Notes under the pieces: generated by a model | The model's database searches: none | Seen by the model: only the letters and a program-made list of their open reading frames with translations | What the model was told of the DNA's origin: nothing | From: Candidatus Zhuqueibacterota bacterium | Lineage (GTDB): Bacteria; Zhuqueibacterota; Zhuqueibacteria; Oceanimicrobiales; Oceanimicrobiaceae | Direction: 5' to 3' | Length of the DNA: 64,000 bases | Assembly: GCA_029262055.1 (NCBI GenBank) | Contig: JAJDAD010000045.1 | Location: 1-64,000, forward strand | Shown: positions 372 to 28,498 of the stretch, piece by piece | Position numbering within the stretch: position 1 is the first letter of the stretch | Layout: the number at the start of each line of letters is the position of its first letter | Made by a program: the position numbers and the translations under genes

Positions 372-1406
372 TTGCCGCAGTTTCACCATACTTCTAAATT
401 TGGTGAAATAAAGATTTATGGTAATTTGACTGTGTCCGGCAAAGAAAGCACTCAACAAAAATCGCTATCCAGCTTCCTGCTAAATGACGTTTTGCCGGAA
501 AGCAGGGCATCCTTACAGACACCGAGGTTGCTCGACCTTACCGTCATCGTTTATCTGCTGTTGCTTGCCGCCCTCATTGTGGTTTTCCAGTCAAGAGTTC
601 CACATTGGTATTTTTATGTCGCAGCTCACGGTGTGATTCTGTTGTTCGTTCTCGCCTTGGTGCGTTTTACTGAAGGACGTGAATCGGGTGTTTGGTACAT
701 CGTCCGTGAAGTGTACCCCATGGTATTGTTCACGTTTATGTTTAAGGAAATCAGTTTAATAATAAATATCTTCTTTCCTTTTTGGTTGGAACCCCATCTG
801 ATTCGGTGGGATCAACTGCTTTTCGGTGAACATGCCGTGATTCTGACGGAGCAATTTTTTAACCCAATCCTCACTGAAGTTATGGCTTTCGCATACTGGT
901 CCTATTATGCGCTTCTGCCTTTGGCTGCGATTGCGTTACTCATTTCGAGAAAGAAGACTCTGTTGCGGTCTTTTATGTTCAACCTGACGTTGACCATGTG
1001 TACCTGCTATCTTTCCTACTTGCTGCTTTCAGCCCGGGGCCCGCAGGACACGCTCGGTCATTTATTGCACGGCCCGGAGCCAACTGGTCTGTTTTACGGC
1101 ATGGTCTTAAGAATTCAGGCAGCGGCATCGATCTCCGGTGCAGCGTTTCCCAGTTCGCATGTGGCAGCGGTGTGGGTCATCCTGATTTTCATGTTCCGGC
1201 TGCACCGCGTCATCGGTGCTTTAGTTGCGCCGATCATCATCTTACTGACCATTTCCACAGTCTACCTGCAGTATCACTATGCGGTTGACGCCATTGCCGG
1301 AATAGTTCTGGTTGCATTCACCTACCCGCTTGCATCACGCATTGAACGTCGGTTTAACGAGCGGCGAAATCTGTTTCCAGCCTACGCATCCAACGGTCAA
1401 ACCTGA
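372..1406 (+). CDS. PAP2-family membrane phosphatase / phosphotransferase
   Basis: This is a polytopic membrane protein of up to 344 residues, with about six hydrophobic helices from residue 55 onward. The PAP2 signature is visible: an SARGP stretch near residue 220 (motif 1-like), then SGAAFPSSH near residue 255 and QYHYAVD near residue 300, which supply the two catalytic histidines and the Asp. Order and spacing fit the PAP2 / inositol-phosphorylceramide-synthase-like branch, which removes or transfers phosphate on lipid head groups or polyprenyl carriers at the membrane. The substrate cannot be told. The start is uncertain: TTG at 372 is the longest choice, while TTG at 426 or GTG at 432 would drop a poorly conserved-looking N-terminus. 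None has a clear ribosome binding site. Confidence 0.8.
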   Translation: MPQFHHTSKFGEIKIYGNLTVSGKESTQQKSLSSFLLNDVLPESRASLQTPRLLDLTVIVYLLLLAALIVVFQSRVPHWYFYVAAHGVILLFVLALVRFTEGRESGVWYIVREVYPMVLFTFMFKEISLIINIFFPFWLEPHLIRWDQLLFGEHAVILTEQFFNPILTEVMAFAYWSYYALLPLAAIALLISRKKTLLRSFMFNLTLTMCTCYLSYLLLSARGPQDTLGHLLHGPEPTGLFYGMVLRIQAAASISGAAFPSSHVAAVWVILIFMFRLHRVIGALVAPIIILLTISTVYLQYHYAVDAIAGIVLVAFTYPLASRIERRFNERRNLFPAYASNGQT

Positions 1407-1656: not shown

Positions 1657-2682
1657 ATGAGAACCAGGTTGGCCTTACCCGGGGGCCTGACACTGATGGT
1701 GACTTGTTTCGCCTTCTGCGCACCCATATTCGGTCAAACGACGATGGTGGGTGGGCGCGGTATGCTTAGAGTGCAGGCTGCAGAGACGGCGCAGGCGAAA
1801 GCTTTCGTCATAAACTCCTTTTTCAGCACATTTTCCCGAAACACGCGTGGCGGCAGGCTCTATGATCATTCACTTAGTGGCTCGTTCACTTATGGTTTGA
1901 GCAACAACGTTGAGTTGACAACGCAAGTAATCCCATATCAGGACGACCAGGTCCACTCCAGCTGGGGGCCTCCGGGCGACATCCTGTTCGGGGCAAAATG
2001 GCGGACACCTCTGTCGGGCAGAATGCTGCGGACAGCCGTGCGTACGTTCCTGCGATTACCGACTTCATCCAATCACAACGTGCCGTTTGAACCCTTTTCT
2101 TCCAATGACGTGTCCTGGGGCGTGATGGCGATCTCATCCTTGCTGGTTTCAGCTCCGCTGCCATTTAAGGTAAGTGCAAATCTGGGCTATGTAGACCATG
2201 ATATTGGAACCTTTTTGCAGAGTCGCAGTACCGATCAATTGCTCCTCGGTTTGGGTTTTAAGATTCCAATCCGGGATATCATCTTTTACACCGAGTACTC
2301 TGCTGAGATTTTTCACAACAACAGTGCGATCAACTTTAGCAACAATTCCATGCGGCTTTCACACGGCGTAAAACTTCGAACGCCCTACCACACTGTGCTC
2401 GATCTGGGATTTGATATTGGGTTTAGCCAGGATCTGTCTCGCTATCCAGCACCTTTGCACGAATATGCGGACTGGAAGGTTTTCAGCGGTCTGAGTTACC
2501 AATTCAGGGCGTCCAAGATGTGGAAAGACCGCAAAACAGAAAGAGCTACTCCGGAAAAACTTGCTCCCGAGGAGGTGGACGGGGCTTTGGAGCGTTTGCG
2601 AGAAAAACGTGAAAAAATAGATGAAGCTCTTGATGATATGCGGAAAGATTTGGATGACAAATCAGAACGCGACGAAGAATAG
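1657..2682 (+). CDS. Outer-membrane beta-barrel protein with acidic coiled-coil tail
   Basis: A 341-residue exported protein. The N-terminus is a signal peptide (basic MRTR, then a hydrophobic stretch ending at a cleavage-like FGQ near residue 27). The body has alternating hydrophobic/polar strands with many aromatic and Gly residues, as in transmembrane beta-barrels. The last 45 residues switch to a charged coiled coil rich in Glu, Lys and Arg. ATG 1657 is preferred over ATG 1639 because GGAGA at 1643-1647 sits nine bases before it and the signal peptide then has normal length. It opens a tightly packed run with the TPR, ExbB/ExbD and AgmX genes, so it may be the outer-membrane part of that assembly. 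No named family is recognised with certainty. Confidence 0.7.
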   Translation: MRTRLALPGGLTLMVTCFAFCAPIFGQTTMVGGRGMLRVQAAETAQAKAFVINSFFSTFSRNTRGGRLYDHSLSGSFTYGLSNNVELTTQVIPYQDDQVHSSWGPPGDILFGAKWRTPLSGRMLRTAVRTFLRLPTSSNHNVPFEPFSSNDVSWGVMAISSLLVSAPLPFKVSANLGYVDHDIGTFLQSRSTDQLLLGLGFKIPIRDIIFYTEYSAEIFHNNSAINFSNNSMRLSHGVKLRTPYHTVLDLGFDIGFSQDLSRYPAPLHEYADWKVFSGLSYQFRASKMWKDRKTERATPEKLAPEEVDGALERLREKREKIDEALDDMRKDLDDKSERDEE

Positions 2683-2702
2683 AGGCAGCCGTAATTAAAG
2701 GT

Positions 2703-4055
2703 ATGCATAAATCAAGCTTCCCCGCCGCCGCGGCCCTCTTGCTTTGTCTGGTGGCCGCAGGTTGGCTGATTGCCGGTCCGCTTGTCCCGGATGAAGAAGA
2801 CGAGGGCAAGAGACTTGAACGGGAAGCCAAGGCGTTGTTTTCATCTGCCTCTGCCCGCTATGGCTCCGGCGATCTTTGGCAGGCGGCCCTGGAGCTCATA
2901 CAGATCGTGGACTTCTACCCGTCGTTTTCAAAGTTCGAGGATGCCGTGTTTTTGCTGGCACAGTGTCAGTACGAGCTAGAAATGTACGCTGGCGCCGACC
3001 GAATGTACCGCTTCCTGCTGCAATCGGTGAACAAAACCAAGTTGGTTCCGGAAGCTCTTCTTGGCCTCCAGAAGGTCGCCTACAAACGCGGCGATTTTCC
3101 GCAAAGCCTGAAGTTCTATAAGACTATGGAGGCGCACTACACCAAACACGAGGGCATTGCGGAGTCACGCTATATTGCCGAACAAACTTATTTTAACCAG
3201 GAAAGCTATGGCCTGGTGCACAACGTCGTTCCTCACATTAAGGAAAAGAGTCCTTTCTATCCGTACGCGCTCTACACGGCGGGCCTGGCTCACCTGAAAG
3301 AAAAAAATGTAAGAGAAGCCATCTCCGTATTCAGCAAGGTGGATCGGCTCTCGGACAGCGGTTCGGAACAAGCTCAGATCGTGAGCGCCGCACGCCTGAC
3401 TTTAGGGTACGTCTATTTTGAATTGTCGGAGTTCAAGGCGGCCGCCAAGTATTTGCTCAGAGTCAAACCGGTGTTCCACGGCTATCCGGAAGCGCTCTTG
3501 ACGCTCGGTTGGGCCTTCTTGAAATTGCAGGATCATAAATCTGCCCTCATCCCGCTCAACAAACTCATCCGTAGCTATCCCGACTACTACAACCTGGATG
3601 AAGCTCATTTCCTGCGCGGCCAGTCCTACCTGAAGCTTGGATATTATGATTTTGCCGCCAACGAGTTTGACCTTGTCGTTCCGACGGACTCCAGCAAAAC
3701 CGACACCACCCACTACGAATCTGCCAGGGGCAACTTGAATGTCCTTGAAGAAGGACTGGAGGCGCTACAAGAGGAGTTGTTCTTACTGGAGACGAAACTG
3801 CTTGAGTCAATTCCTCTCTACGAAGAAAATATCATGGCACCGGACTTACCCGGAAATATGGTGCATGCAAAGACCGAGCTGCAGGCCATGCTCAATAACC
3901 TCCGTGTTGAACGAGAGGATTTTAAGCTTACCTCTGACAAAATTGCCATGATGCGCAAAGCACTCGCAAAAAGCGAGATGCGTAACAAGTGGGAAGCGTA
4001 TGCCGAGTACGGGCGTGTCAAGGCTCTGTACGTAAAAGCGATGGGGGTGGAATAG
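2703..4055 (+). CDS. Periplasmic tetratricopeptide-repeat protein
   Basis: A 450-residue protein with an N-terminal signal or anchor helix (about residues 5-25) followed by an acidic linker and then TPR-like helical pairs from about residue 40 to 330. Repeat marks such as a small residue, Tyr and Ala-Phe pairs followed by a Pro-Asp/Pro-Ser turn recur roughly every 34-37 residues. The last 110 residues are long charged helices, probably coiled coil. This type of scaffold is seen in Agl/Glt gliding machinery and Tol-associated systems, where it works in the periplasm between inner and outer membrane. It starts 20 bases after the barrel gene and ends directly against the next, larger TPR gene. 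The exact family is not resolved. Confidence 0.75.
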   Translation: MHKSSFPAAAALLLCLVAAGWLIAGPLVPDEEDEGKRLEREAKALFSSASARYGSGDLWQAALELIQIVDFYPSFSKFEDAVFLLAQCQYELEMYAGADRMYRFLLQSVNKTKLVPEALLGLQKVAYKRGDFPQSLKFYKTMEAHYTKHEGIAESRYIAEQTYFNQESYGLVHNVVPHIKEKSPFYPYALYTAGLAHLKEKNVREAISVFSKVDRLSDSGSEQAQIVSAARLTLGYVYFELSEFKAAAKYLLRVKPVFHGYPEALLTLGWAFLKLQDHKSALIPLNKLIRSYPDYYNLDEAHFLRGQSYLKLGYYDFAANEFDLVVPTDSSKTDTTHYESARGNLNVLEEGLEALQEELFLLETKLLESIPLYEENIMAPDLPGNMVHAKTELQAMLNNLRVEREDFKLTSDKIAMMRKALAKSEMRNKWEAYAEYGRVKALYVKAMGVE

Positions 4056-6944
4056 ATGACCGTGGCTTCCTTCAAAAGCAATGTACGCGAGATTGGCGCT
4101 TGTCTTGCTTTGCTGTCGTGCGCCGGCGTCTTGTTTTCGACGTCCACTTTTGCACAGGAATCAGCTTCTTCGGATTTGCACCGGCTTCGCGACCTGAACG
4201 CCGCCATCACGGCGTCGGAGAAACTGCTAGCCAAATACCCGCGCCATGATTTTTCGCCCACCGTTGTCTTCCAGTTGTCAGACCTGTACTTACGGCAAGC
4301 CAGCCTGCAGTTTCAACAGGAAATGCTGGTCTACGAGCAAGCTGAGCGGATGCGCACTTATGCTGCGGATGAAGTGGCGCCGATAGCTCCCAGGATAGAT
4401 TTAGGCGAATCCATTCGCATGTCACAAAGCCTGCTCGAGAAGTGGCCGGAGATACATTTCCGCGATAAGGTACTGTATCGCATTGCGCTGTGCTATGCTG
4501 AGCAGGGTGATATGCGGGAGGCTACCGAGCATTATCTGGCGGTGGCCGCGGAGTCAGATGACCCGGCCCTGCTGGAGGAGACCTACTTTCGGCTCGGCGA
4601 ATATTATTTTGACCAGAAAGACTATCCCGCAACTATAAAGTACTACGGACGCGTTCTGGACAGTTGGGAAAATCCGTTTTTTGATATGGCATTGTATAAA
4701 CTGGGTTGGTCCTATTATATTACTGAGGACTATGCCCAGGCCATCAGCATTTTTATCTACCTGATCGAAGATGTTGATTTGTTGGACGAGGTCCAAACAT
4801 CGAAGGTCAGCGAAGCGAAAACCGACCTGCGACAGGAAGCCATCGAGTACATCTCCGTTTGTTTTTCTGAGTTTGGCGGGCCGTACAAAGCCGCGGATTT
4901 TTTGCGGGAGCGCAAACAGGAGTCTTACGCTGAAGCAATCCTGCTGCATTTGGCAAGTCTCTACCAGGAACGAAATTTCTATACCGAAGCGATCGAAACG
5001 CTGAATATCCTCATCGACTATTATCCATTGAAACCAGCCGTAGCCCATTATCAAAAACAGATCGTCGAAAGTTATGAGTTGGCCGGAGACAAGCAGCAGG
5101 CCGATCTCGCCCGTGCTCGTTTGATCGAGACTTACGGTCCGGGCTCTGATTGGTTCAGCGGCGTCAACGATGCCGAAACCCGCAACGAAGTGATAACGGC
5201 CACCGAAGAATTCCTCTATACCCTGGCCAGCGAAGCTCAGCTCAGAGGACAGACCAGTCAGGACGGCGGCGAGTACAACAAGGCAATTTCATGGTATAAG
5301 GCTTATCTGGATAAGTTTCCGTCACACGAACGCGCCCATCAAGTCCAGTTCTACCTTGGGGAATGCTACTACGACCTTGCGGAATACGCCCAGGCGGCTG
5401 AGAGTTATTATGCCGTTTCTGTAAGCTATCCGAGCTCGGAGTTTGCCGAGACCGCCGCGTACAATCGGATTTTGGCCTTCGGGCAGTTGCTGCAACAATC
5501 GACCAGTGTCGATTCGGTCAACCTTTCGTTGTTCAACTTTTTGGGGCATTCCGAAAGTATCCCCACAGTCATCAGGTCCAGGAACGACCTGCAGGCGCAA
5601 ATCATGCAGGCGAGCAATGACTTTTTCCTGTTCCACACGCTCAGTCCAAAGACGAACGAAGTCTTGATAAATTTTGCCCAGTTCCTGTTTGATCTCAAAC
5701 ATTTCGACTTGGCCGGTAAGGCTTACCAGGAGGTGGCCGGCAGGTCCATGGACAATCCGTATCTTACCCGGGCAACTTTCATGGCAGGGCAGTCGGATTA
5801 CGAGGCTGAGAATTTCGTGGCTGCCGAGGGGTGGTTTCGCAAAGTTGTTTCACAGTTTCCCGACTCGGTGGCTTACGTCGAAAAGGCCGGCCGGTTGCTC
5901 GCTTCTTCGCAATTCCGCAGCGCTGAAGTGTACACAGCCAATGGCGATAGCCTGATGGCGGCTTTGGCTTTTGAAAATGTCGCCAGGACCGTGACGGACA
6001 GCGCGGTAGCTGAGCGGGCATTGCTCGAGGCCGCGCAGAAATTTGAAGATCTTGGTTCCAGATCCAAGGCCATCGAGTTGTATGAAGCTGTATTTACGCG
6101 CTTCCCGAAATCCGAATTTGTTGATGAATCATTGTTCAAGGCTGGTGCACTTTGCGAAGAAACAGAGCAATTTGAGCGAGCGGCGGTCAATTACACGAAT
6201 TTGTACCGGCACGATTCCGGCTCAAAATACGCTGCCGAAGCCCTGTTTGCCGCTGCGCGCAGTTTTGAGAACCTCAACCGGCCGGAGCTTGCCCGGCAAC
6301 ATTACGCGCAATACACGTCGGTGCACAAAGATGACCCGGATCGCTACCTGGAAGCGGCATTCAGAAATGCGGACATCGCCTATAGCCAAAAAAACTTTCA
6401 AGCTGCCAGGAAGCAACTACAATTTGTCATAGATTCTCAGAAGAGATTTTTGCAAGAACAGGTGGAAGTCGACAACTATTTGCCTGCCAATGCTCAGTTT
6501 TTGCTGGCGGAGATTTCGTTTCTGGACTTCCAAGCCATCGAACTGACCCCGCCGGTTGAGCGCAAACTCAAGCGCAAGCAAACGCTTTTTCAAAGAGTGA
6601 TCAAAGAATACACGGAAGCCGCAAAATATAAGGTCGCGGAATGGGCCACCGCCGCTTCATTCAAGATTGGCAGGACGTTCGAAGAATTTGCCGCGGCTCT
6701 GCTTTCTGCTCCCCGTCCGGCAAATTTGTCTCCTGGAGATTTGATGAAGTATAACCAACAGTTGCAGCAGCGGGTACTGCCGTTTAAGCAGAAGGCGCAG
6801 AGAACGTATGAAACCGTCCTGCAAAATGCGGCTGAGAACAACATTGTCAACACTTGGGTAATGGAGAGCGAGCGACGCTTGAATGCACTTAATGTAGAGT
6901 TGGGAATTCGACCCATGAATGCCAGTAAGGGCGCCGATTCTTGA
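4056..6944 (+). CDS. Large periplasmic TPR-repeat protein (962 residues)
   Basis: The protein carries a signal peptide (hydrophobic stretch with a cleavage-like TFAQ near residue 34) and then TPR repeats along nearly its whole length. Recognisable units (Tyr-x-x-Gly-x-x-Tyr/Phe, followed by A-I/A-Y and a 'yPxS/FPxS' loop) are visible near residues 140-230, 300-360, 405-470, 560-620 and 660-760. The last 150 residues are charged helices. Its start follows the stop of the previous gene with no gap, which suggests translational coupling. By analogy with repeat proteins next to TolQ/TolR-type motors it is likely a large periplasmic scaffold. It has no catalytic motif. Confidence 0.75.
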   Translation: MTVASFKSNVREIGACLALLSCAGVLFSTSTFAQESASSDLHRLRDLNAAITASEKLLAKYPRHDFSPTVVFQLSDLYLRQASLQFQQEMLVYEQAERMRTYAADEVAPIAPRIDLGESIRMSQSLLEKWPEIHFRDKVLYRIALCYAEQGDMREATEHYLAVAAESDDPALLEETYFRLGEYYFDQKDYPATIKYYGRVLDSWENPFFDMALYKLGWSYYITEDYAQAISIFIYLIEDVDLLDEVQTSKVSEAKTDLRQEAIEYISVCFSEFGGPYKAADFLRERKQESYAEAILLHLASLYQERNFYTEAIETLNILIDYYPLKPAVAHYQKQIVESYELAGDKQQADLARARLIETYGPGSDWFSGVNDAETRNEVITATEEFLYTLASEAQLRGQTSQDGGEYNKAISWYKAYLDKFPSHERAHQVQFYLGECYYDLAEYAQAAESYYAVSVSYPSSEFAETAAYNRILAFGQLLQQSTSVDSVNLSLFNFLGHSESIPTVIRSRNDLQAQIMQASNDFFLFHTLSPKTNEVLINFAQFLFDLKHFDLAGKAYQEVAGRSMDNPYLTRATFMAGQSDYEAENFVAAEGWFRKVVSQFPDSVAYVEKAGRLLASSQFRSAEVYTANGDSLMAALAFENVARTVTDSAVAERALLEAAQKFEDLGSRSKAIELYEAVFTRFPKSEFVDESLFKAGALCEETEQFERAAVNYTNLYRHDSGSKYAAEALFAAARSFENLNRPELARQHYAQYTSVHKDDPDRYLEAAFRNADIAYSQKNFQAARKQLQFVIDSQKRFLQEQVEVDNYLPANAQFLLAEISFLDFQAIELTPPVERKLKRKQTLFQRVIKEYTEAAKYKVAEWATAASFKIGRTFEEFAAALLSAPRPANLSPGDLMKYNQQLQQRVLPFKQKAQRTYETVLQNAAENNIVNTWVMESERRLNALNVELGIRPMNASKGADS

Positions 6945-6957
6945 GAAGGTGACAGTA

Positions 6958-7311
6958 ATGAGACCGCGTTTTACTCATTTGTTTGTATTTATTGGAATGG
7001 TTCTATTTCATTTGCCAAGCCTGTCGGCACAGTCCGTCGGGACCGGTTCTGCGCAACCTGACTCTGCGACCACCAGTGAGACATTTAGCCTTGATACGCG
7101 CAAGCAGGAGGTTAGGTTGTTTCTGGACAAAATAGATATTCTGGGCCGGGTCGACAAGCCGCAAACGGTATTCATCGTCCAGGGACAAGACCCGGATGTT
7201 GATGATATCCAGATAGACCGTTCTTTCTTTAAGGAAATCTTCAGGCCGGTTGAGCGCGACGCTATTTTGAAGATCGCCAAACAAAGCAGGAAACCTGCCG
7301 GGCCAAATTAG
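6958..7311 (+). CDS. Small secreted protein of unknown function
   Basis: A 117-residue protein with a clear signal peptide (MRPR, about 17 hydrophobic residues, LSAQ at residues 22-25). The mature part is about 90 residues, charged, with no Cys and no repeat. ATG 6958 is chosen because a GAAGGTGA-like Shine-Dalgarno lies 5-10 bases before it and the signal peptide then begins normally; a longer frame from 6919 would bury the signal. It sits between the large TPR gene and exbB in the same direction. It could be a periplasmic adaptor of the motor, but this is only inferred from position. Confidence 0.6.
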   Translation: MRPRFTHLFVFIGMVLFHLPSLSAQSVGTGSAQPDSATTSETFSLDTRKQEVRLFLDKIDILGRVDKPQTVFIVQGQDPDVDDIQIDRSFFKEIFRPVERDAILKIAKQSRKPAGPN

Positions 7312-7370
7312 AAATATCCAGGCTTCCCGGAGACGGGAAGTCTCTTTTGAAAAAACGTCGGAGGTGAAAT

Positions 7371-7994
7371 TTGCAGTACATCAGCTTAGCTTTTAAGAAC
7401 GGCGGTCCGTTCATGTATGTTATCCTGATAACGTTGATAATCGGCATCGCAATAATCGTCGAGCGATTTATTTATATAGCTGTCAAGAATCGCATCGACA
7501 CAACGAAATTCATCAACAGAATCATTGAGCTGGTCCGGAACGGCGGCATCAAGAATGCAGTAGAGTTGTGCAACCGCTCGGAAGCCGCCCTGCCGATGAT
7601 CACTGCCGCCGGCCTCAAACAGTATGGCAAAGGCGATAAGGAGATCCAGGGCGCTTTTGAACTGGCAGCCATGACCGAGATCCCGAAGCTGGAGCGGCGG
7701 ACTCACTATCTGTCCATGATCGCGAACGTTGCAACTTTGCTTGGCCTGCTCGGCACGATTGTCGGCCTGATTCAATCGTTCCAGGCCGTTTCGGCGGCGG
7801 ACTCTTCCCAGAAAGCGGCTCTGCTGTCAGCCGGTATCGCGGTCGCAATGAATACCACGGCATTCGGTCTGATGGTGGCCATCCCGTGCATGGTCTTTCA
7901 TTCCTACATTCAGTCCAAGACCAACAACATCATCGACGAAATCAATGAAAATGTTGCGCGCGTGTATCAGAGATTAACCACGGCGAGACGCTAG
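7371..7994 (+). CDS. ExbB/TolQ/MotA-type proton channel subunit
   Basis: A 207-residue inner-membrane protein. It has a first transmembrane helix at about residues 14-33, a cytoplasmic stretch, then two further helices (about 115-140 and 150-178). The family signature is clear: GTIVGLI before the second helix end and GIAVAMNTTAFGLMVAIP in the third, including the conserved Thr in the pore. These proteins form a pentamer around an ExbD/TolR dimer and turn proton flow into motion of periplasmic partners. The start is TTG at 7371, backed by a strong GGAGG at 7360-7364 six bases upstream. It is followed after one base by the first exbD-like gene. Confidence 0.9.
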   Translation: MQYISLAFKNGGPFMYVILITLIIGIAIIVERFIYIAVKNRIDTTKFINRIIELVRNGGIKNAVELCNRSEAALPMITAAGLKQYGKGDKEIQGAFELAAMTEIPKLERRTHYLSMIANVATLLGLLGTIVGLIQSFQAVSAADSSQKAALLSAGIAVAMNTTAFGLMVAIPCMVFHSYIQSKTNNIIDEINENVARVYQRLTTARR

Positions 7995-7995
7995 C

Positions 7996-8454
7996 ATGAA
8001 TCTGAAACAATCTTTGGGGCGGACCAGCAGGCTTGGCGATGATGAGTTGAACATCACCCCGGTGATGAACATCTTTTTGATCCTTGTGCCGTTTCTTCTG
8101 TTGACCGCCGTCTTTGTCAAGATTTCGATTGTAGAGTTTTCGCTACCCAGCGGTGATGCCAGGGGACAAAACGCGCAGGATCCCAAGACCGCTCCTGTTG
8201 TCACGATTCTGTCCATCAACAAGGATGGGTTTGAGCTTAAGTCCAAAGGTGTGGCCATTCCGTTTATCCGGAATAAACAGGCCGAATTCAATTTTCCGTT
8301 GCTGGTGAAAAAGCTTGAAGAAGTGAAAAAGCGCCATCGCAGTTCTGAGGACATCATCATTGCACCGCAGGAAGACATCAAGTACAACACATTGATTCAG
8401 GTCATGGACCGGTGTCGGGAAAGCGGTTTTCCCAACATTTCAATTTCTGGTTGA
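7996..8454 (+). CDS. ExbD/TolR-family protein, first copy, lacking the conserved Asp
   Basis: A 152-residue protein with one transmembrane helix near residues 24-44 and a periplasmic domain of the ExbD/TolR fold (LxIxKDG-like strand around residue 74, IIAPQ near 118 and a final 'MDRCRESGFPNISI'). In this family the motif before the helix is normally N-x-T-P-x-x-D, and the Asp carries protons. Here it reads NITPVMNIF, so residue 25 (codon AAC at 8068-8070) is Asn. The rest of the protein looks intact, so it is probably a structural partner and not decay. Two bases separate it from exbB, and seven bases from the second copy. Confidence 0.88.
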   Translation: MNLKQSLGRTSRLGDDELNITPVMNIFLILVPFLLLTAVFVKISIVEFSLPSGDARGQNAQDPKTAPVVTILSINKDGFELKSKGVAIPFIRNKQAEFNFPLLVKKLEEVKKRHRSSEDIIIAPQEDIKYNTLIQVMDRCRESGFPNISISG

Positions 8455-8461
8455 TCGAGAG

Positions 8462-8989
8462 ATGTATTTAAATCTAAATCCAGACGATGAGAACAAGCTG
8501 TTCGTGGTGAAGCCGCGCCGGAACAAATCTATCAGTTCCTTCACGTTGCGGTTGACCTCCATGATCGATATGTTTACGATCTTGCTGGTATTTCTTCTGA
8601 AAAGTTTTTCTGTCGAAGGCGAGATTATGAGTGTCGCCAAGGACCTGAAGTTGCCGGAATCAACAGCGCAAATGCCACCCAAGGCCAGTCCCATTTTGAC
8701 TATCACAAATGATTGGATTATCCTGGATGGTAACCCGGTAACGAGGGTCAGCGAAGCAATGGGAACCGACAGGACCTTGATCGTCCCATTGCAGAAGCAA
8801 CTGTCTAACATCAAAGCGTTTTCGTCCGGCTTGGCTGAATTGGACGATCAGATGGCATTCAAAGGCGACATTACCATTCAGGGTGACCGCGAGATTCCGT
8901 TCGCCCTTCTAAAGAAAATAATGTTTACGTGCGGGCAGGAAGGTTTCAACAATATGCTACTCGCCGTAAACCAGGCTGAACAGAGCTAG
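8462..8989 (+). CDS. ExbD/TolR-family protein, second copy, with the conserved Asp
   Basis: A 175-residue protein with a cytoplasmic N-terminal tail of about 30 residues, one transmembrane helix (about 33-52) and a periplasmic ExbD-type domain ending with 'FNNMLLAVNQAEQS'. The helix begins LTSMIDMFTILLVFLL, and Asp36 (codon GAT 8567-8569) is in the position of the proton-carrying Asp of ExbD/TolR. It differs strongly from the copy just upstream, which has Asn there. Two ExbD-like genes beside one ExbB gene recall the AglR-AglQ-AglS arrangement of Myxococcus gliding motors (family knowledge). It is followed almost at once by the AgmX-like gene. Confidence 0.88.
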   Translation: MYLNLNPDDENKLFVVKPRRNKSISSFTLRLTSMIDMFTILLVFLLKSFSVEGEIMSVAKDLKLPESTAQMPPKASPILTITNDWIILDGNPVTRVSEAMGTDRTLIVPLQKQLSNIKAFSSGLAELDDQMAFKGDITIQGDREIPFALLKKIMFTCGQEGFNNMLLAVNQAEQS

Positions 8990-8993
8990 TGTG

Positions 8994-10313
8994 ATGGCAA
9001 AAGATCACAAACTTCTTCATGTCAAAATCGAGCAAGGCGACCGGGTCCTGCACCGCAAGATAGGCAAGAACGAGCGCTTCTCGATGGGGCAGGATCCACG
9101 CTGCGACGTTACGCTCTACGGCAGTCAGTTTCCCAAACGGCACTTTCTGTTTTCGGGCAAGAACAATCATTTTGAAATAAATCTCACCGATTACATGCAG
9201 GGTGAGGTTGTAGCCGGCGAATCCCGATTGACTTTCCAGGACATGATTGCCCATGGCCTGCTGGCCCGCAAGGGGGGTAGTTTCTACTACTCGGTTACCA
9301 GTGGTAAAAAAGGGCGGTTACGGGTTGGGGATGCCCAGATCACTTTCCAGTGCAGTTCCGGGGCGCCTCCGGTACAGGAAGAGAAGTTTCTTGCATTCTC
9401 CTGGGGCTATGCTACACTGCGCGACCTTGGCAAGGATTTGTCATTCAAGGCTATCCTGGTAGTGACTTTTGCCGTTCACATGCTGCTTCTGGCCTATCTT
9501 AAGGGTCTGCCCACGGATTCTATCAATGCTCCGGGAACGCGCAGGGTCGTGCCCGAGCGGCTGGCGAGGCTCATCATCCGTAAACCTGAACCGGTTGTCC
9601 CGCCGCCGGAAAAGGCAATCGTAAACAACACCGAGTCCGAAGAAGAGGCGCCGGAAGACAAGCCGGATGAAGCCAGACCCAAGAAGGCCAAGGAGGCTGC
9701 ACCACCTGAGAGTCAGGGAGTGCTGGGTCTTTTGACCGGTATTGGCGGCAGCGATGAATCGGGCGATCTTTCGGGCTTTTTGCTGGACAAGGGACTTGTG
9801 AAAGAACTCGACCAGGTCATGGCAAATACCGATCTGTCCGTCGGACAGGGCAACGGCAGCAGCGCTTTCGACGACTTGATCGCCGCCACCGATTTGGCCG
9901 GCGGAATCGATGATCTCCTGGCAACGTCGGACAACAATATCGAAGGTGTTTCCCTGGGCAGAAAAGCCCGGATCGATGTGGAGCAAATCGGAAGAATGTC
10001 CGGCAGCGATGCGGCCGTGGGACAACGGTCTGAAGAATCGGTCCGACAAGTGTTGCTCGCGAACACCGGGCGGCTCACCTACATGTACAAGAAATACCTG
10101 CGAAGGAATCCGGATCTGCGCGGGAAAATGGTTGTTGAAGTTGTGATTGCCGCAAGCGGAAGAGTATCGAAAGCCACCTTACTTTCATCTACGCTTAATT
10201 TTCAGCAGCTCGAACGGGAGATTATGAGCTTTGTTCGAACCTGGCGCTACCCCGAAATCGACCAGGGCGATGTCTCAGTCACCTTACCGCTATTCTTTAG
10301 TCGGGTTGATTGA
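8994..10313 (+). CDS. FHA-like / AgmX-PglI C-terminal (TonB-like) protein
   Basis: A 439-residue protein. Residues 1-125 form an FHA-like beta-rich cytoplasmic domain (RFSMGQDPRCDV resembles the first FHA strands, followed by Gly-rich strands). A single transmembrane helix follows at about 150-170, then a Pro/Glu/Lys-rich spacer (about 180-240), a low-complexity Asp/Gly/Ser region, and a C-terminal TonB-like domain at about 345-438. The C-terminal part has the usual 'LRGKMVVEVVIAASG' and 'WRYPEIDQGD' marks of the AgmX/PglI family. This is the periplasm-spanning arm that would be driven by the ExbB/ExbD motor. ATG 8994 is preferred; GTG 8991 is directly before it. It closes the operon. Confidence 0.82.
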   Translation: MAKDHKLLHVKIEQGDRVLHRKIGKNERFSMGQDPRCDVTLYGSQFPKRHFLFSGKNNHFEINLTDYMQGEVVAGESRLTFQDMIAHGLLARKGGSFYYSVTSGKKGRLRVGDAQITFQCSSGAPPVQEEKFLAFSWGYATLRDLGKDLSFKAILVVTFAVHMLLLAYLKGLPTDSINAPGTRRVVPERLARLIIRKPEPVVPPPEKAIVNNTESEEEAPEDKPDEARPKKAKEAAPPESQGVLGLLTGIGGSDESGDLSGFLLDKGLVKELDQVMANTDLSVGQGNGSSAFDDLIAATDLAGGIDDLLATSDNNIEGVSLGRKARIDVEQIGRMSGSDAAVGQRSEESVRQVLLANTGRLTYMYKKYLRRNPDLRGKMVVEVVIAASGRVSKATLLSSTLNFQQLEREIMSFVRTWRYPEIDQGDVSVTLPLFFSRVD

Positions 10314-12908: not shown

Positions 12909-14171
12909 ATGACTTACAACAGATATTTGGGGACATTGGTTGCAATTGCAGTACTGGCTGTGGCCACGCAATCCTGCTATTCTCAGGAGCTGAAGCGATC
13001 GGGTCGCTATTTTGTCGCAGAGCTGTCAAAGTCGTTCAAAGTGGACCACAAGGGCGAGCTAATCGTCGAAGATGTTCGCGGCGATGTTTCCGTCCAGGGT
13101 TGGGACAAGAAAGAAGTCCATATCAAAGAGTTGAAGAAGATGGATGTCTTCACGCGTGCCGAGGCCGAAACCATCCTGGAGAAATCACGTTCGAGTTACC
13201 ACCAGTCAGGAAATACAATAACCATCGGTGGCGAGTACTTTCGCCGCGACTGGATTGAAAGTGAGTTTACTATCAAGGTACCGTCCGGGTTCAACACGAG
13301 CGTCGGGACTCGGGGCGGAGATATCACAATCGGCGATGTCGAGGGCAGCGTCAGCCTCAAGACCTCCGGTGGAGATATTTCGCTGAGTCGTATCGGTGGG
13401 AAAATCAATGCGCGGACCTCTGGCGGCGATGTTGCCGTCGTCGATGTGAGAAACGAAGTAACCTTGAAAACCTCGGGAGGAGACATTGTAGTCTCCAACG
13501 TCACCGGTCACCTGCTGGCCAAAACATCTGGTGGCGATATTTCAATTGCAAAGGTAGGGGGCAGCGTCGACGTACACACTTCCGGAGGTAGTATTGCGAT
13601 TGCTGACGCCAATAGTGGCGTCAAAGCAAAGACGTCCGGTGGTGATATTGAACTGCGCGGCACTGAAGGCGCCGTTGCAGTGCATACGTCCGGTGGCGAC
13701 ATAACGCTGCTGGATGTGGGTGGAGCTTTGGAGGCATCGACCTCCGGTGGCGATATCTCGGGGCGGCGCGTGGGTGGGCGTGCTCAGGTGACAACCTCCG
13801 GTGGCGATATCAGGCTTGATGATGTCATCGGAGGAGTGTATGGCAAAACGGCCGGTGGTGACATTGAAGTGAAGATTGGCCTGGAAGATTTTTCCAAACC
13901 ACATGAAATTGACTTGCGTTCAGCCGGCGGCGAGATTGAATTGACAATTCCGGAAAAAATGCCCGCAACCATTCGTGCCGAAATCGATATCGATGGCCGC
14001 TGGGAAGACTATAATATTTATTCGGATTTTCCCCTGACCAGTGCAAGTGACTCTGAGTCGGAACGGCGCCGGCGCCGGCGTTATGTCAGAAGTGAGGGCG
14101 ACATAAATGGCGGTGGCGACCTGATTCAGCTCTACACGACAAATGGGGATATTTACATCAAGAAACGGTAA
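12909..14171 (+). CDS. DUF4097-type exported repeat protein (beta-helix-like)
   Basis: A 420-residue protein with a signal peptide (hydrophobic core about residues 8-22, CYSQ near 26). Residues 134-320 consist of eleven copies of an 18-residue unit starting T-S-G-G-D-I, followed by a twelfth degenerate copy (SAGGEI). Such regular Gly-Gly-Asp turns are typical of DUF4097 'putative adhesin' proteins and predict a stacked beta-helix or roll. A run of six Arg near residue 385 precedes the C-terminus. Its position behind a sigma/anti-sigma pair suggests an envelope or stress role, as with other DUF4097 proteins, but no activity is known from sequence. Confidence 0.8.
   Translation: MTYNRYLGTLVAIAVLAVATQSCYSQELKRSGRYFVAELSKSFKVDHKGELIVEDVRGDVSVQGWDKKEVHIKELKKMDVFTRAEAETILEKSRSSYHQSGNTITIGGEYFRRDWIESEFTIKVPSGFNTSVGTRGGDITIGDVEGSVSLKTSGGDISLSRIGGKINARTSGGDVAVVDVRNEVTLKTSGGDIVVSNVTGHLLAKTSGGDISIAKVGGSVDVHTSGGSIAIADANSGVKAKTSGGDIELRGTEGAVAVHTSGGDITLLDVGGALEASTSGGDISGRRVGGRAQVTTSGGDIRLDDVIGGVYGKTAGGDIEVKIGLEDFSKPHEIDLRSAGGEIELTIPEKMPATIRAEIDIDGRWEDYNIYSDFPLTSASDSESERRRRRRYVRSEGDINGGGDLIQLYTTNGDIYIKKR
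13308..13865 (+). repeat. 54-base coding tandem repeat (11 units)
   Basis: Eleven in-frame units of exactly 54 bases begin at 13308 and repeat up to 13848. Each starts with codons for T-S/R/A-G-G-D/S-I/V (ACC TCC GGT GGA GAT ATT in many). The GGT GGC GAT AT core is strongly conserved at DNA level while the rest of each unit differs, so the array is old and kept by selection on the protein. Confidence 0.9.
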
Positions 14172-19847: not shown

Positions 19848-20582
19848 ATGAGTTCATTTTCCACTTTTTTAATCATTGTTGTGGTTCTGCTGCTGGGTTT
19901 TGCCGGTTATTACTACCTGGACCAGATAGCACCGCTGCAGGTGGCGCACGCCGACCTCATCGAACGTAACGAAGACCTTCGCTTTCAGATTGCTCAACTA
20001 GAGCAACAGAATGCGGCGTTGACGGCACAGTTGGAGCAGACAGTCGAGGAGCTGTCGGTAGAGAAGGAAAAGGAGGTCGAACGGCTTAAGCTGACTTATG
20101 AAGATCTGGTCGGCAGCCTGCGTGAACAGATTAAGCGCGGCGAAGTAACCATCACACAACTGGCGGATGAACTCAAGGTGAAGATCGTTGATCAAATCAT
20201 CTTTCCCTCCGGTACGGCCGAGCTACGCGAGAGTGGCAAGAAAGTCCTGCAGCAGGTCGGCGACATCTTGAAAACCATCGAAGACAAGCGCATCGTGGTC
20301 GAAGGCCATACGGATAACGTGCGGATTCATCCCAATCTCCGGGACCAGTTTCCGAGTAACTGGGAGTTGTCGGTGGCGCGCGCAACAAACGTCGTGCGAT
20401 TTCTGCAAGAAGAGGCCGGCGTCCCCGCCGCGAAATTGGAAGTGTCCGGCAAAGGTCAATATCACCCTGTTGCGAGCAACAAAACCCGGCAAGGCCGCCG
20501 ACAGAACAGGCGCATCGAGATCCTCCTTTTGCCGTCACCGGGCCATGTTCAAAACCTCGGGCAAAAGCCGGCTTCAAATTGA
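19848..20582 (+). CDS. OmpA/MotB-domain peptidoglycan-binding protein
   Basis: A 244-residue protein with one N-terminal membrane helix (about residues 6-24), a long coiled coil (about 28-100, rich in Glu, Gln and Leu heptads), and a C-terminal OmpA-like domain (about 110-230). The peptidoglycan-binding signature is 'VEGHTDNVRI' with later 'LSVARATNVVRFL' and 'NRRIEILLLP'. The design, inner-membrane helix plus coiled coil plus OmpA domain, is that of MotB-like cell-wall anchors and not of OmpA barrels. There is no MotA partner beside it. GGGGAGCGGT lies just before ATG 19848. The sigma-54 activator gene follows 139 bases later. Confidence 0.85.
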   Translation: MSSFSTFLIIVVVLLLGFAGYYYLDQIAPLQVAHADLIERNEDLRFQIAQLEQQNAALTAQLEQTVEELSVEKEKEVERLKLTYEDLVGSLREQIKRGEVTITQLADELKVKIVDQIIFPSGTAELRESGKKVLQQVGDILKTIEDKRIVVEGHTDNVRIHPNLRDQFPSNWELSVARATNVVRFLQEEAGVPAAKLEVSGKGQYHPVASNKTRQGRRQNRRIEILLLPSPGHVQNLGQKPASN

Positions 20583-25393: not shown

Positions 25394-28300
25394 ATGTTTT
25401 CGGCAGGTCCATTAAATTGCTCCCGTACTATTGTCTTAGCCCTGATTTTACTCCTGACTGGTTTGGCCCTGCCGCAACATCAGCAGCAAGTCGAGACCGA
25501 ATTTTCGATTCGACAAGAGCAGATTTTACACGCTGTAAATCTGTTACGGGCCGAACGTGACTTGCCAGCAATTACGATGGCGCCGCAACGTGCCGAATCA
25601 GTTGTTGCGCTTGAGCCAACAGCAGCCGTCGGTGTAGGCAGTATCAGTGGCAAGCTGGATGGCCTGGAAAGCCCGCGGTTTCTGACTGCGACCGTAGTGG
25701 CCTGGTCGGTTGATTCATCCGGAGTGGGTTTTTCAAATGTTGACCATGATGGTGCTTACAGGATAACCAGATTACCGGCAGGTGATTACTACGTTCTGGC
25801 AGCTGTTGATGGATACATTCCGAAATTCTATGACAATGCGTTGAGTTTTTCTGAAGCCACGACTGTACGGTTGGGTGATGGTGCAGATGTGGCGGGCATC
25901 GATTTTGATATGGAAGTTCTCCCGCCGGGAACGGGTGTCATTTCCGGGACAGTGACCACCAAAATAGACAGCACGCCTTTGGCCGGAGCCATTGTCACCG
26001 TCACTTCTATCGAGCATCCTTTCGAGTTCGGACACGCTGAAACAGACGATCAGGGTAATTACCGGGTCACCGAGTTGCGCAGCGGGGAGTATCGGGCCGT
26101 AGCCTTTGCACGCGGATTCTTGGTAGAATTTTTCGAGGAGACGCATTCCGTCCATGACGCCACACCCATTTTTGTACGTGAGCCAGAGGAAGTCAGTGGA
26201 ATTAATTTTACTCTGAGCGCAGGCGGGGAAATTTCAGGACGGGTAGTCAATCAGGAGGGCGCTCCTATCACAGGAGCATTTGTCCAGGCTCTTTCTGAGC
26301 TAATATTGAGCGGGCCGACCGATCCGGACTCCGCGGCATTCTATCCGGACGGGCTCATAGGACGGGCCCTCACTGACAGGAATGGTGAATATGTCATCAG
26401 CGGGTTGCAGCCCGGTACCTTCTTTGTAAATGTCCGCGCGGCAGATGTGATTGGCAGAGCTTTCACTTGGTATGACAACGTTAACAATCTCGCAGACGCA
26501 ACCCCTGTCCCGGTAATTGAGGAGGAAGTAACTCCAGGTATTGATTTTCAATTGGATCTGCAGGTCGACAGAGGGTCCATAGAGGGCCGGGTCGTGGACA
26601 GCCAGGGTCACCCCCTCGGGAGGGCGGTGGTTTCTGCCGAGCCGTTAGATGGCCGGGGAGACCCCGGTACAGTACCCTTTCTGGCAGTATTCACCGACAG
26701 TGATGGCAAGTACGTCATGGAGAATTTACGAGAGGGGAGATACCTTCTGCACGTTAGCGTACACAGCGCGTGGCAGTTTGTTGAACGCTGGTGGCCGGAT
26801 GCTGAAAACCGTGACGACGCCGAACCTGTGGTCGTGGATGCGGTTGCCGGGCCTGTTGTCGCAGATTTCGAGGTACCGTTCGTGCCTGGAACTGCGGTCG
26901 TTTCCGGTGAGGTGCGCTCAACTTCGGGCGCCCTTTTACCATTCGCTTTTGTGGAAATCAGTCCGGCCGAAACCGACGCAGCCGTTCCGAATGGGGCAGT
27001 TTGGGCCTACGCCAACACCGACAGCAACGGTACTTATGAGATCGCAAATCTCCCGGCCGGGATCTACACTGCCAAAGCCCAATACTGGGAGGAAGAAAGC
27101 TTTGGGGTGCAGTGGTTCGATCACCAGGATGGCCGGGGAACGGCTACACCGATTGAACTGACTCAGGGTGATAGAATTGAGAATATTGATTTCGATCTTG
27201 ACATCCGTCCATTTTTCGGTTCCCTGGCGGGAACGGTAACAGACGACCTTACGGGACAAACGGCGGCGCGTGTTTATGTTGAGCTTACTTTTGTCAACCC
27301 TGACCCGCTAGCTGAAATTGCTTTCTTCCCGTGGCCGTTCTTTGCCATCACCGATGAGAACGGTAACTATCAGATCGAGCGAGTGCCTGAGGGCGAATAT
27401 CTAGTCGCAGTTTACACTAACGGCGGGTTCGAATACTTCGAAGACGTCTTTGTCCCCGAGATGGCCACTGCGGTGAAGATTACTGGTGGAGAAACCAGGG
27501 CAGTTAATTTTTCCGTGCTGCCGCGCAATGACGGAACCGGTGTTATCTCAGGTCAAGTCTACGATGAGTACAACGATGCTCCACTCGAAATTGCGGTCGT
27601 AACTGCTATTCCGGCGGTACGTCCGCTGGTCTGGCCGGATTCCGAACGCTTTTACAACGCAGTCATCGATGCGAACGGATTTTACGAAATCGACGGGCTG
27701 CCGGATGGTGAGTACATTGTCATGGCTTTCGCGCCTGAGCATGTCGCCGAGTACTACCGGGACGCGTTCGATCCCGCGGACGCCACTCCGGTAATCATCG
27801 ACAGCCAGGGTCGAGCGACGAACATTGATTTTAGTCTGCATCCTCAGATCTTTTTCAGGACTTCTGTTGAAGGCGATCCTGCCTTCGGCCAGACCGGTCC
27901 CAGGGTGCAAGGCCGGGTAACCGACCAAAATCAGGCGGGGCTCGCGAATGCGGTTGTCTACCTGCTCAACGAGCAGGAAGAATCGATATCTTCGGCGCGC
28001 AGCGACTTGGGTGGGCGCTACAGCTTGTCAAATTTCCCTCCGGGCACCTATCGGTTACGGGCGACCCGCATAGGATTTGAGAGTGTGTTCAATGGTTCCG
28101 CCTCAAACTTCAGCGCGGCGGAACCGCTGCAACTCAATGCGGGTCAAATGGAAGTTGATTTCACTCTGCAAGCCGGCCTGGTCAGTGGGGTCGCCGGCGA
28201 TGGCGTGACCCCGCCGGCAACTGTTGTGCTGTATGAGAATCACCCAAATCCTTTCAACCCCAGCACGGAAATCTCCTTTTCATTGCCGGCGGAGACGGAA

Positions 28301-28498
28301 ATCAAACTCACGATTTTTAATCTGCTCGGGCAGCGCGTGCGCATTCTGCAAACCGGTGTGCTGGCTGCCGGTCCGCATTTGGTGACCTGGAATGGCCGTA
28401 ATGGAAAAGGTGTGACTGTTCCGAGTGGCGTGTATTTTTATGTTTTACAAACGAGCACACCTGACTTCCTGGTTAGAAGAATGACCTTGTTGAAATAG
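25394..28498 (+). CDS. Large exported protein: eight carboxypeptidase-regulatory-like repeats plus type-IX-like sorting tail
   Basis: A 1034-residue protein starting with a signal peptide (to about residue 31). About eight domains of the CarboxypepD_reg / SpaA-like fold follow, each opening with 'ISGxV' or similar, then a 'DxxGxYxIxxLPxGxY' hairpin, and most closed by 'ATPVxV ... IDFxL'. Examples start near residues 78, 178, 277, 395, 498, 614, 716 and 832. The C-terminal 85 residues form a FlgD-Ig/Por-type tail: 'ENHPNPFNPSTEISFSLP', 'IFNLLGQRVRIL', 'PSGVYFYVLQ', ending in 'RRMTLLK'. Such tails send proteins out by type-IX-like secretion in FCB bacteria. No enzyme domain is visible, so it is probably an adhesive or structural surface protein. 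GGAGG precedes ATG 25394. Confidence 0.85.
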   Translation: MFSAGPLNCSRTIVLALILLLTGLALPQHQQQVETEFSIRQEQILHAVNLLRAERDLPAITMAPQRAESVVALEPTAAVGVGSISGKLDGLESPRFLTATVVAWSVDSSGVGFSNVDHDGAYRITRLPAGDYYVLAAVDGYIPKFYDNALSFSEATTVRLGDGADVAGIDFDMEVLPPGTGVISGTVTTKIDSTPLAGAIVTVTSIEHPFEFGHAETDDQGNYRVTELRSGEYRAVAFARGFLVEFFEETHSVHDATPIFVREPEEVSGINFTLSAGGEISGRVVNQEGAPITGAFVQALSELILSGPTDPDSAAFYPDGLIGRALTDRNGEYVISGLQPGTFFVNVRAADVIGRAFTWYDNVNNLADATPVPVIEEEVTPGIDFQLDLQVDRGSIEGRVVDSQGHPLGRAVVSAEPLDGRGDPGTVPFLAVFTDSDGKYVMENLREGRYLLHVSVHSAWQFVERWWPDAENRDDAEPVVVDAVAGPVVADFEVPFVPGTAVVSGEVRSTSGALLPFAFVEISPAETDAAVPNGAVWAYANTDSNGTYEIANLPAGIYTAKAQYWEEESFGVQWFDHQDGRGTATPIELTQGDRIENIDFDLDIRPFFGSLAGTVTDDLTGQTAARVYVELTFVNPDPLAEIAFFPWPFFAITDENGNYQIERVPEGEYLVAVYTNGGFEYFEDVFVPEMATAVKITGGETRAVNFSVLPRNDGTGVISGQVYDEYNDAPLEIAVVTAIPAVRPLVWPDSERFYNAVIDANGFYEIDGLPDGEYIVMAFAPEHVAEYYRDAFDPADATPVIIDSQGRATNIDFSLHPQIFFRTSVEGDPAFGQTGPRVQGRVTDQNQAGLANAVVYLLNEQEESISSARSDLGGRYSLSNFPPGTYRLRATRIGFESVFNGSASNFSAAEPLQLNAGQMEVDFTLQAGLVSGVAGDGVTPPATVVLYENHPNPFNPSTEISFSLPAETEIKLTIFNLLGQRVRILQTGVLAAGPHLVTWNGRNGKGVTVPSGVYFYVLQTSTPDFLVRRMTLLK

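Follow-up and report, generated by a model that had tools for sequence, protein, structure and literature searches.

The first 64,000 nucleotides of contig JAJDAD010000045.1 (the window) belong to the 5.7-Mb genome, assembled in 114 contigs, of a Candidatus Zhuqueibacterota bacterium from the phylum KSB1 (assembly GCA_029262055.1), and they carry an eight-gene operon at positions 1657-10313 that most likely encodes a core complex of the Agl-Glt type (probability about 0.8). All eight open reading frames are located on the plus strand, with successive gaps of 20, 0, -26, 59, 1, 7 and 1 bases. An initial reading of the DNA sequence alone (the sequence-only reading) had described eight nearly gapless genes whose products extend from a barrel to a periplasmic arm, and all eight open reading frames were confirmed, no gap exceeding 59 bases. 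The deduced genes are as follows:

1657..2682, plus strand: predicted outer-membrane beta-barrel, first gene of the operon (open reading frame with beta alternation; kept in 34 loci)
2703..4055, plus strand: GltC-like periplasmic TPR protein of 450 amino acids (TPR matches in Pfam; NCBIfam GltC below cut-off)
4056..6944, plus strand: GltD-like large periplasmic TPR protein of 962 amino acids (KSB1-only profile against Myxococcota)
6958..7311, plus strand: GltF-like small secreted protein (likely ATG at 6958 and signal peptide; conserved motif)
7371..7994, plus strand: AglR-like channel of the ExbB/TolQ family (MotA_ExbB 2e-29; AMNTTAFGL signature)
7996..8454, plus strand: ExbD1, AglQ-like plug with Asn25 at the proton site (ExbD 1e-20)
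8462..8989, plus strand: ExbD2, AglS-like plug with the proton-site Asp kept (ExbD 1e-12)
8991..10313, plus strand: GltG/PglI-like transducer of 440 amino acids, an FHA-transmembrane-TonB arm (GltG 1.3e-28; myxo_SS_tail 1.8e-23; AF2 model and Foldseek)

The analysis shows directly which genes the locus contains, to what they are homologous, how they are ordered and which residues occupy the proton sites. Profiles built exclusively from KSB1 sequences were used in a genome scan and recognised a contiguous block of a GltD-position gene (372-482 bits), a GltE-position gene, the small gene, ExbB, ExbD1, ExbD2 and GltG in loci of Myxococcota and deltaproteobacteria. Myxococcota loci such as L121 and L122 display the contiguous order GltD-GltE-GltF-AglR-AglQ-AglS-GltG, and L207 has the same order with a GltC-like gene in front; such a gene precedes GltD in both L206 and L207 from the class holding Anaeromyxobacter. 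On the basis of the profile matches to these blocks, the KSB1 order can be read as barrel-GltC-GltD-GltF-AglR-AglQ-AglS-GltG with GltE unrecognised, which makes the large TPR protein probably GltD-like, the shorter one GltC-like and the small protein GltF-like, with ExbB, ExbD1 and ExbD2 as putative AglR, AglQ and AglS and the arm as GltG. A phylogenetic tree of the ExbD1 (AglQ-type) proteins likewise joined the KSB1 and Myxococcota sequences. The sequence-only reading had assumed a gene set other than that of Agl/Glt; this assumption had to be abandoned, since counterparts of GltD, GltF, GltG, AglR, AglQ and AglS, together with a putative GltC, are present, and uncultured Myxococcota have the same block contiguously.

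The assignments of the periplasmic components were derived as follows. TPR repeats were detected by Pfam and NCBIfam models in the second and the third gene of the operon. The KSB1-only profile of the 962-residue protein is collinear over most of its length with the proteins at the GltD position of Myxococcota operons, with scores of 372-538 bits. These matches disfavour a relationship to type IX secretion with the TPR proteins in the role of PorW/SprE, to which a score of 71 bits for the large TPR protein with the PorW/SprE model and a weak sorting domain of that pathway in one window protein might point; this score, however, is far under the cut-off of 250 bits and fits TPR cross-matches, and the motor of type IX secretion is GldL/GldM, not the ExbB/ExbD type encoded here. 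This explanation was rejected as having practically negligible probability. The KSB1 profile of the 450-residue protein matched a 784-residue gene product of L207 collinearly with 99.8 bits, and that product is itself recognised as GltC (7e-28), whereas genes at the GltE position were matched weakly (17-39 bits). A provisional designation as GltE, guessed from size and position, was thus replaced by GltC-like. The small protein, a 130-residue open reading frame with a likely start at ATG 6958 and a signal peptide, carries the motif KPQxxFI.G.DP.VDDI.IDRSFF.EIFR, whose conservation across 39 loci is strong. KSB1 and mixed profiles also matched the small gene that occupies this position in Myxococcota operons, and the KPQ motif is common to both; the candidate view of a gene unique to non-myxobacteria was ruled out in favour of a GltF-like protein.

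Among the inner-membrane components, the AMNTTAFGL signature of ExbB is common to the proteins at the AglR position of Myxococcota. The transducer matched the NCBIfam GltG model NF033760 over residues 17-437 (1.3e-28, 100 bits, below the equivalog cut-off), and GltJ/AgmX with its tail only (2.4e-7, 30 bits), so that the AgmX/GltJ identity was dropped in favour of GltG/PglI. An AF2 model of the transducer contains an FHA fold (residues 7-123), a transmembrane helix (150-171), a linker that is long and disordered, and a C-terminal domain of the TonB type; Foldseek retrieved FHA domains at probability 1.0 along with TonB C-terminal domains. The head, helix and tail that had been proposed for the arm were thereby upheld, and its description as AgmX-like gave way to GltG/PglI-like. 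In the FHA head of the window protein the customary Arg is missing (MGQ in place of IGR), which makes phosphothreonine binding doubtful there.

The first gene of the operon specifies a protein with a signal peptide, an N-terminal GGRGxxRV motif and a C-terminal coiled coil, and its beta alternation amounts to 0.32 compared with 0.12 +/- 0.04 in shuffled sequence. No Pfam or NCBIfam model matched this protein above cut-off and the fold prediction from its single sequence was uninformative; despite the signal peptide and the excess of beta alternation, the barrel therefore still has the status of a prediction, and so far it is confined to KSB1 as a phylum-specific component. The adjacent barrel gene and the TonB-type C-terminal domain of the transducer could also be expected of a TonB-type system that serves specifically to energise import through the barrel. 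This is very unlikely, as the barrel has no plug or match to TonB-dependent receptors, TonB systems are not known to include large TPR proteins and the docking His is not conserved.

Several observations weigh against an Agl-Glt core complex. The GltE component was not recognised: no GltE match was found in the operon, and a genome-wide search returned only sub-threshold TPR matches of a kind that was also seen in 12 of 14 control genomes. The direct link of the 450-residue protein to GltC is weak (3e-7, below the NCBIfam cut-off) and depends on the gene of L207, and the general TPR background limits the certainty of this assignment. The barrel is predicted and its identity unproven. The docking His of TonB and TolA in the transmembrane helix of the arm is not conserved, since this position is occupied by His in the window protein and by Asn, Val, Glu and other residues in the relatives. 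Finally, the KSB1 operon has no conserved glycan gene as a neighbour, and the PAP2 gene described below accompanies it in some families alone.

The composition of the operon was compared with that of known Agl-Glt systems. According to Luciano 2011 (PMC3169522), the core (Group B) comprises aglR, aglQ, aglS, gltD, gltE, gltG and gltC, which form one operon in non-gliders, and gltF was placed in the later-recruited Group A that is limited to Myxococcales and Bdellovibrionales. The KSB1 operon shares with the Group B complex the counterparts of AglR, AglQ, AglS, GltD, GltG and, more tentatively, GltC in one operon, whereas it differs by the presence of GltF, an extra barrel and Asn in AglQ, and by the unrecognised GltE. 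The operons L118, L121, L122, L126 and L207 of uncultured Myxococcota and relatives likewise combine GltD, GltF, AglR, AglQ (with Asn), AglS (with Asp) and GltG in one block, but they contain an additional gene at the GltE position and lack a barrel of the KSB1 type. The Agl-Glt and Agl-Nfs machines of Myxococcus have the same type of motor and Glt-type transducers, in contrast to the KSB1 operon, however, their genes are distributed over several loci, AglQ carries Asp and the subunits GltA, GltB, GltH, GltI, GltJ and GltK are included (PMC3858216). Models of these subunits yielded no match among the eight proteins, apart from GltJ via the shared tail, in a comparison restricted to the operon and to a model set that may not cover all six.

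The presence of the core plus GltF raises the question of a gliding machine that drives cell movement and is steered by an MglA/MglB pair of the same genome, in which an MglA-like GTPase gene adjoins a Roadblock (MglB-like) gene and a phosphoesterase-like gene on another contig (C23, locus L246). MglA is, however, also present in non-gliders, and counterparts of GltH, GltI, GltJ and GltK were not seen in the operon. Moreover, the core alone was argued not to drive motility (Luciano 2011, PMC3169522), and a published survey of KSB1 mentions chemotaxis and flagella, the latter in two clades, but not gliding (PMC9012183). Gliding is consequently considered quite unlikely.

The conservation of the Agl-Glt-type operon was examined in a sample of 82 KSB1 genomes. 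Among 40 loci that were read around the transducer gene, 30 contained all eight genes in order and on one strand, as the sequence-only reading requires of relatives; of the other ten, two are truncated at contig ends, in three no barrel was recognised, four (family f10) have no motor genes and one is the second system of the source genome itself. The same gene order was found in five loci that belong to other classes of this phylum, and its conservation is far beyond chance. The transducer was matched in all 60 relatives, in some of them with the C-terminal part alone, and the small protein served as a marker that was present in 73 of the 82 genomes, some of these hits being of the weaker System II type. 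System II designates a second, paralogous system, which in the source genome is located on contig C47 (L078) and encodes TPR proteins of 799 and 1485 residues, a small protein of 133 residues, ExbB, ExbD1, ExbD2 and a GltG-like protein of 366 residues without FHA domain. System II is found repeatedly across the phylum and often precedes genes that by sequence inspection resemble those for aspartyl-tRNA synthetase, PhoH, a 7TM-HD protein and YbeY. No relatives were detected in plasmid and viral collections, and no paper describing this machine in KSB1 turned up in the literature searched, which does not by itself prove novelty.

The source genome also contains a canonical tolQRAB-pal-cpoB locus on contig C52, with TolB (404.6 bits) and Pal (131 bits) both above cut-off along with TolQ-, TolR-, TolA- and CpoB/YbgF-type genes, and TonB-type loci were noted by inspection on contigs C61 and C106. 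The eight-gene operon has an ExbB/ExbD-family motor and a TonB-type C-terminal domain in common with Tol-Pal and TonB, but it differs from them by two different ExbD proteins, the FHA head, the large TPR proteins, the absence of TolB, Pal and a plug receptor, and its separate location. Since a complete Tol-Pal locus exists separately in the same genome, a disguised Tol-Pal system was ruled out, in agreement with the earlier view of a dedicated, conserved and energised trans-envelope machine distinct from Tol-Pal. A machine for outer-membrane maintenance that runs parallel to Tol-Pal and acts at cell division via TPR/CpoB-like proteins would be consistent with scores of the TPR proteins in YbgF models, the near-universal occurrence of the system in the phylum and the housekeeping appearance of the System II locus. 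The complete Tol-Pal system of the same genome and the lack of any gene resembling Pal or TolB in the operon argue against this role, which is regarded as unlikely.

A distinctive feature of the putative Agl-Glt core in KSB1 concerns the two plug proteins. In ExbD and TolR, the Asp of the transmembrane helix is the proton-carrying residue. This position is occupied by Asn in ExbD1 of all 43 loci of System I, the type found in the window, and of 33 of 34 System II loci, and by Asp in ExbD2 of 125 out of 125 loci; these counts refer to loci, some of which share a genome and are thus not fully independent. The sample covered KSB1 and Myxococcota. The remaining ExbD and TolR proteins encoded in the source genome carry Asp. 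In most Myxococcota core operons the AglQ position is likewise Asn, with Ala in L127, but within the class of Anaeromyxobacter and Myxococcus the AglQ-type and second motor set has Asp. The AglQ-like protein of L200 counts to Asp28, which we take to be the essential position in M. xanthus AglQ. In a review, both AglQ and AglS are described with an aspartate, and the choice between a heterodimer and a homodimer is left open (PMC9389320). The nearly invariant Asn in the AglQ-like plug argues against a homodimer of this subunit as the working plug. In the ExbD1 tree, calculated with the proton-site column removed, five changes are needed to explain the residues at this site, and the second motor set of the Anaeromyxobacter/Myxococcus class, which bears Asp, falls within a group of Myxococcota sequences that bear Asn; the deep order of this tree, and hence the ancestral state of the proton site, is not firmly supported.

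The four loci of family f10 (L073-L076) contain the genes for the barrel, the GltC-like, GltD-like and GltF-like proteins and GltG, with the motor genes absent between them, and their GltG proteins possess a predicted coiled-coil head in place of the FHA head. No cognate ExbD1 was detected anywhere in three f10 genomes, which are draft assemblies that could hide a motor locus and in which the only matches were weak ones to ExbD pairs of the ordinary kind with Asp. The altered GltG head argues for a real re-coupling, possibly a natural case of motor swapping. We tentatively consider, as a possibility rather than a probability, that the ancestral Agl motor was asymmetric by design, with an AglQ plug lacking Asp, an AglS plug carrying it and a single working proton site per pair, that the AglQ Asp of the gliding and sporulating myxobacteria was perhaps gained there, and that the transducer of one KSB1 family lost its motor, gained a new head and probably borrows another ExbB/ExbD.

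Additional motor genes were observed near some KSB1 operons. Loci L057 and L077 (f8) contain a second ExbB-ExbD-ExbD-GltG-tail set directly 3' of the complete operon, and the ExbD proteins of the second set in L057 have ordinary Asp sites. In L050, L052, L056, L060 and L061 (f4 and f9), opposite-strand small genes and ExbB are arranged convergently downstream of the operon, possibly as a TonB-type cluster.

With regard to assembly, force transmission and cargo, we infer by analogy with Agl-Glt and Agl-Nfs that the proton-driven ExbB/ExbD motor would move or pull the arm (GltG) together with the Glt proteins of the periplasm. The GltG-like arm would couple the motor to the periplasm via its transmembrane helix and TonB-type domain, and the GltC-, GltD- and GltF-like proteins would bridge the periplasm to the outer-membrane barrel. 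The output would probably be a cyclic pulling on, or lateral movement of, outer-membrane or surface cargo, most likely surface glycan. Glycan is the leading guess for three reasons: the paralogous Agl-Nfs machine of Myxococcus moves spore-coat glycan (PMC3858216); downstream of the core operons L118 and L121 of deep Myxococcota lie a gene for about 470-485 amino acids from an unknown family and a Wza-type polysaccharide export gene; and the operon of the window is preceded by a gene for a PAP2-family membrane phosphatase that is possibly associated with it:

372..1406, plus strand: PAP2-family membrane phosphatase, 5' of the operon (PF14378 1.4e-17)

The PAP2 gene precedes the operon in f1 and in some f6 and f8 genomes and is not class-wide.

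Three further genes of the window encode proteins with conspicuous features. Positions 12909-14171 specify a protein of many TSGGDI-type repeats; its neighbours are a sigma factor of the RpoE type and a protein with HEAT-like repeats that is probably an anti-sigma factor (named by eye). An OmpA/Pal-like protein with an N-terminal transmembrane segment and coiled coil in a MotB-like layout is encoded at 19848-20582 (35.8 bits to Pal), and a protein of 1034 amino acids, in which seven carboxypeptidase-regulatory-like repeats are combined with a weak type IX C-terminal sorting domain, at 25394-28498.

The assignment of the operon would widen the known range of the Agl-Glt core machine to an entire uncultured phylum that has two paralogous copies of it. 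The presence of GltF in KSB1 without a recognised GltE would change the published picture of the timing of GltF recruitment, and the Asn/Asp pair of the two plugs would provide a natural test of the number of proton sites that is needed by a 5:2 motor.

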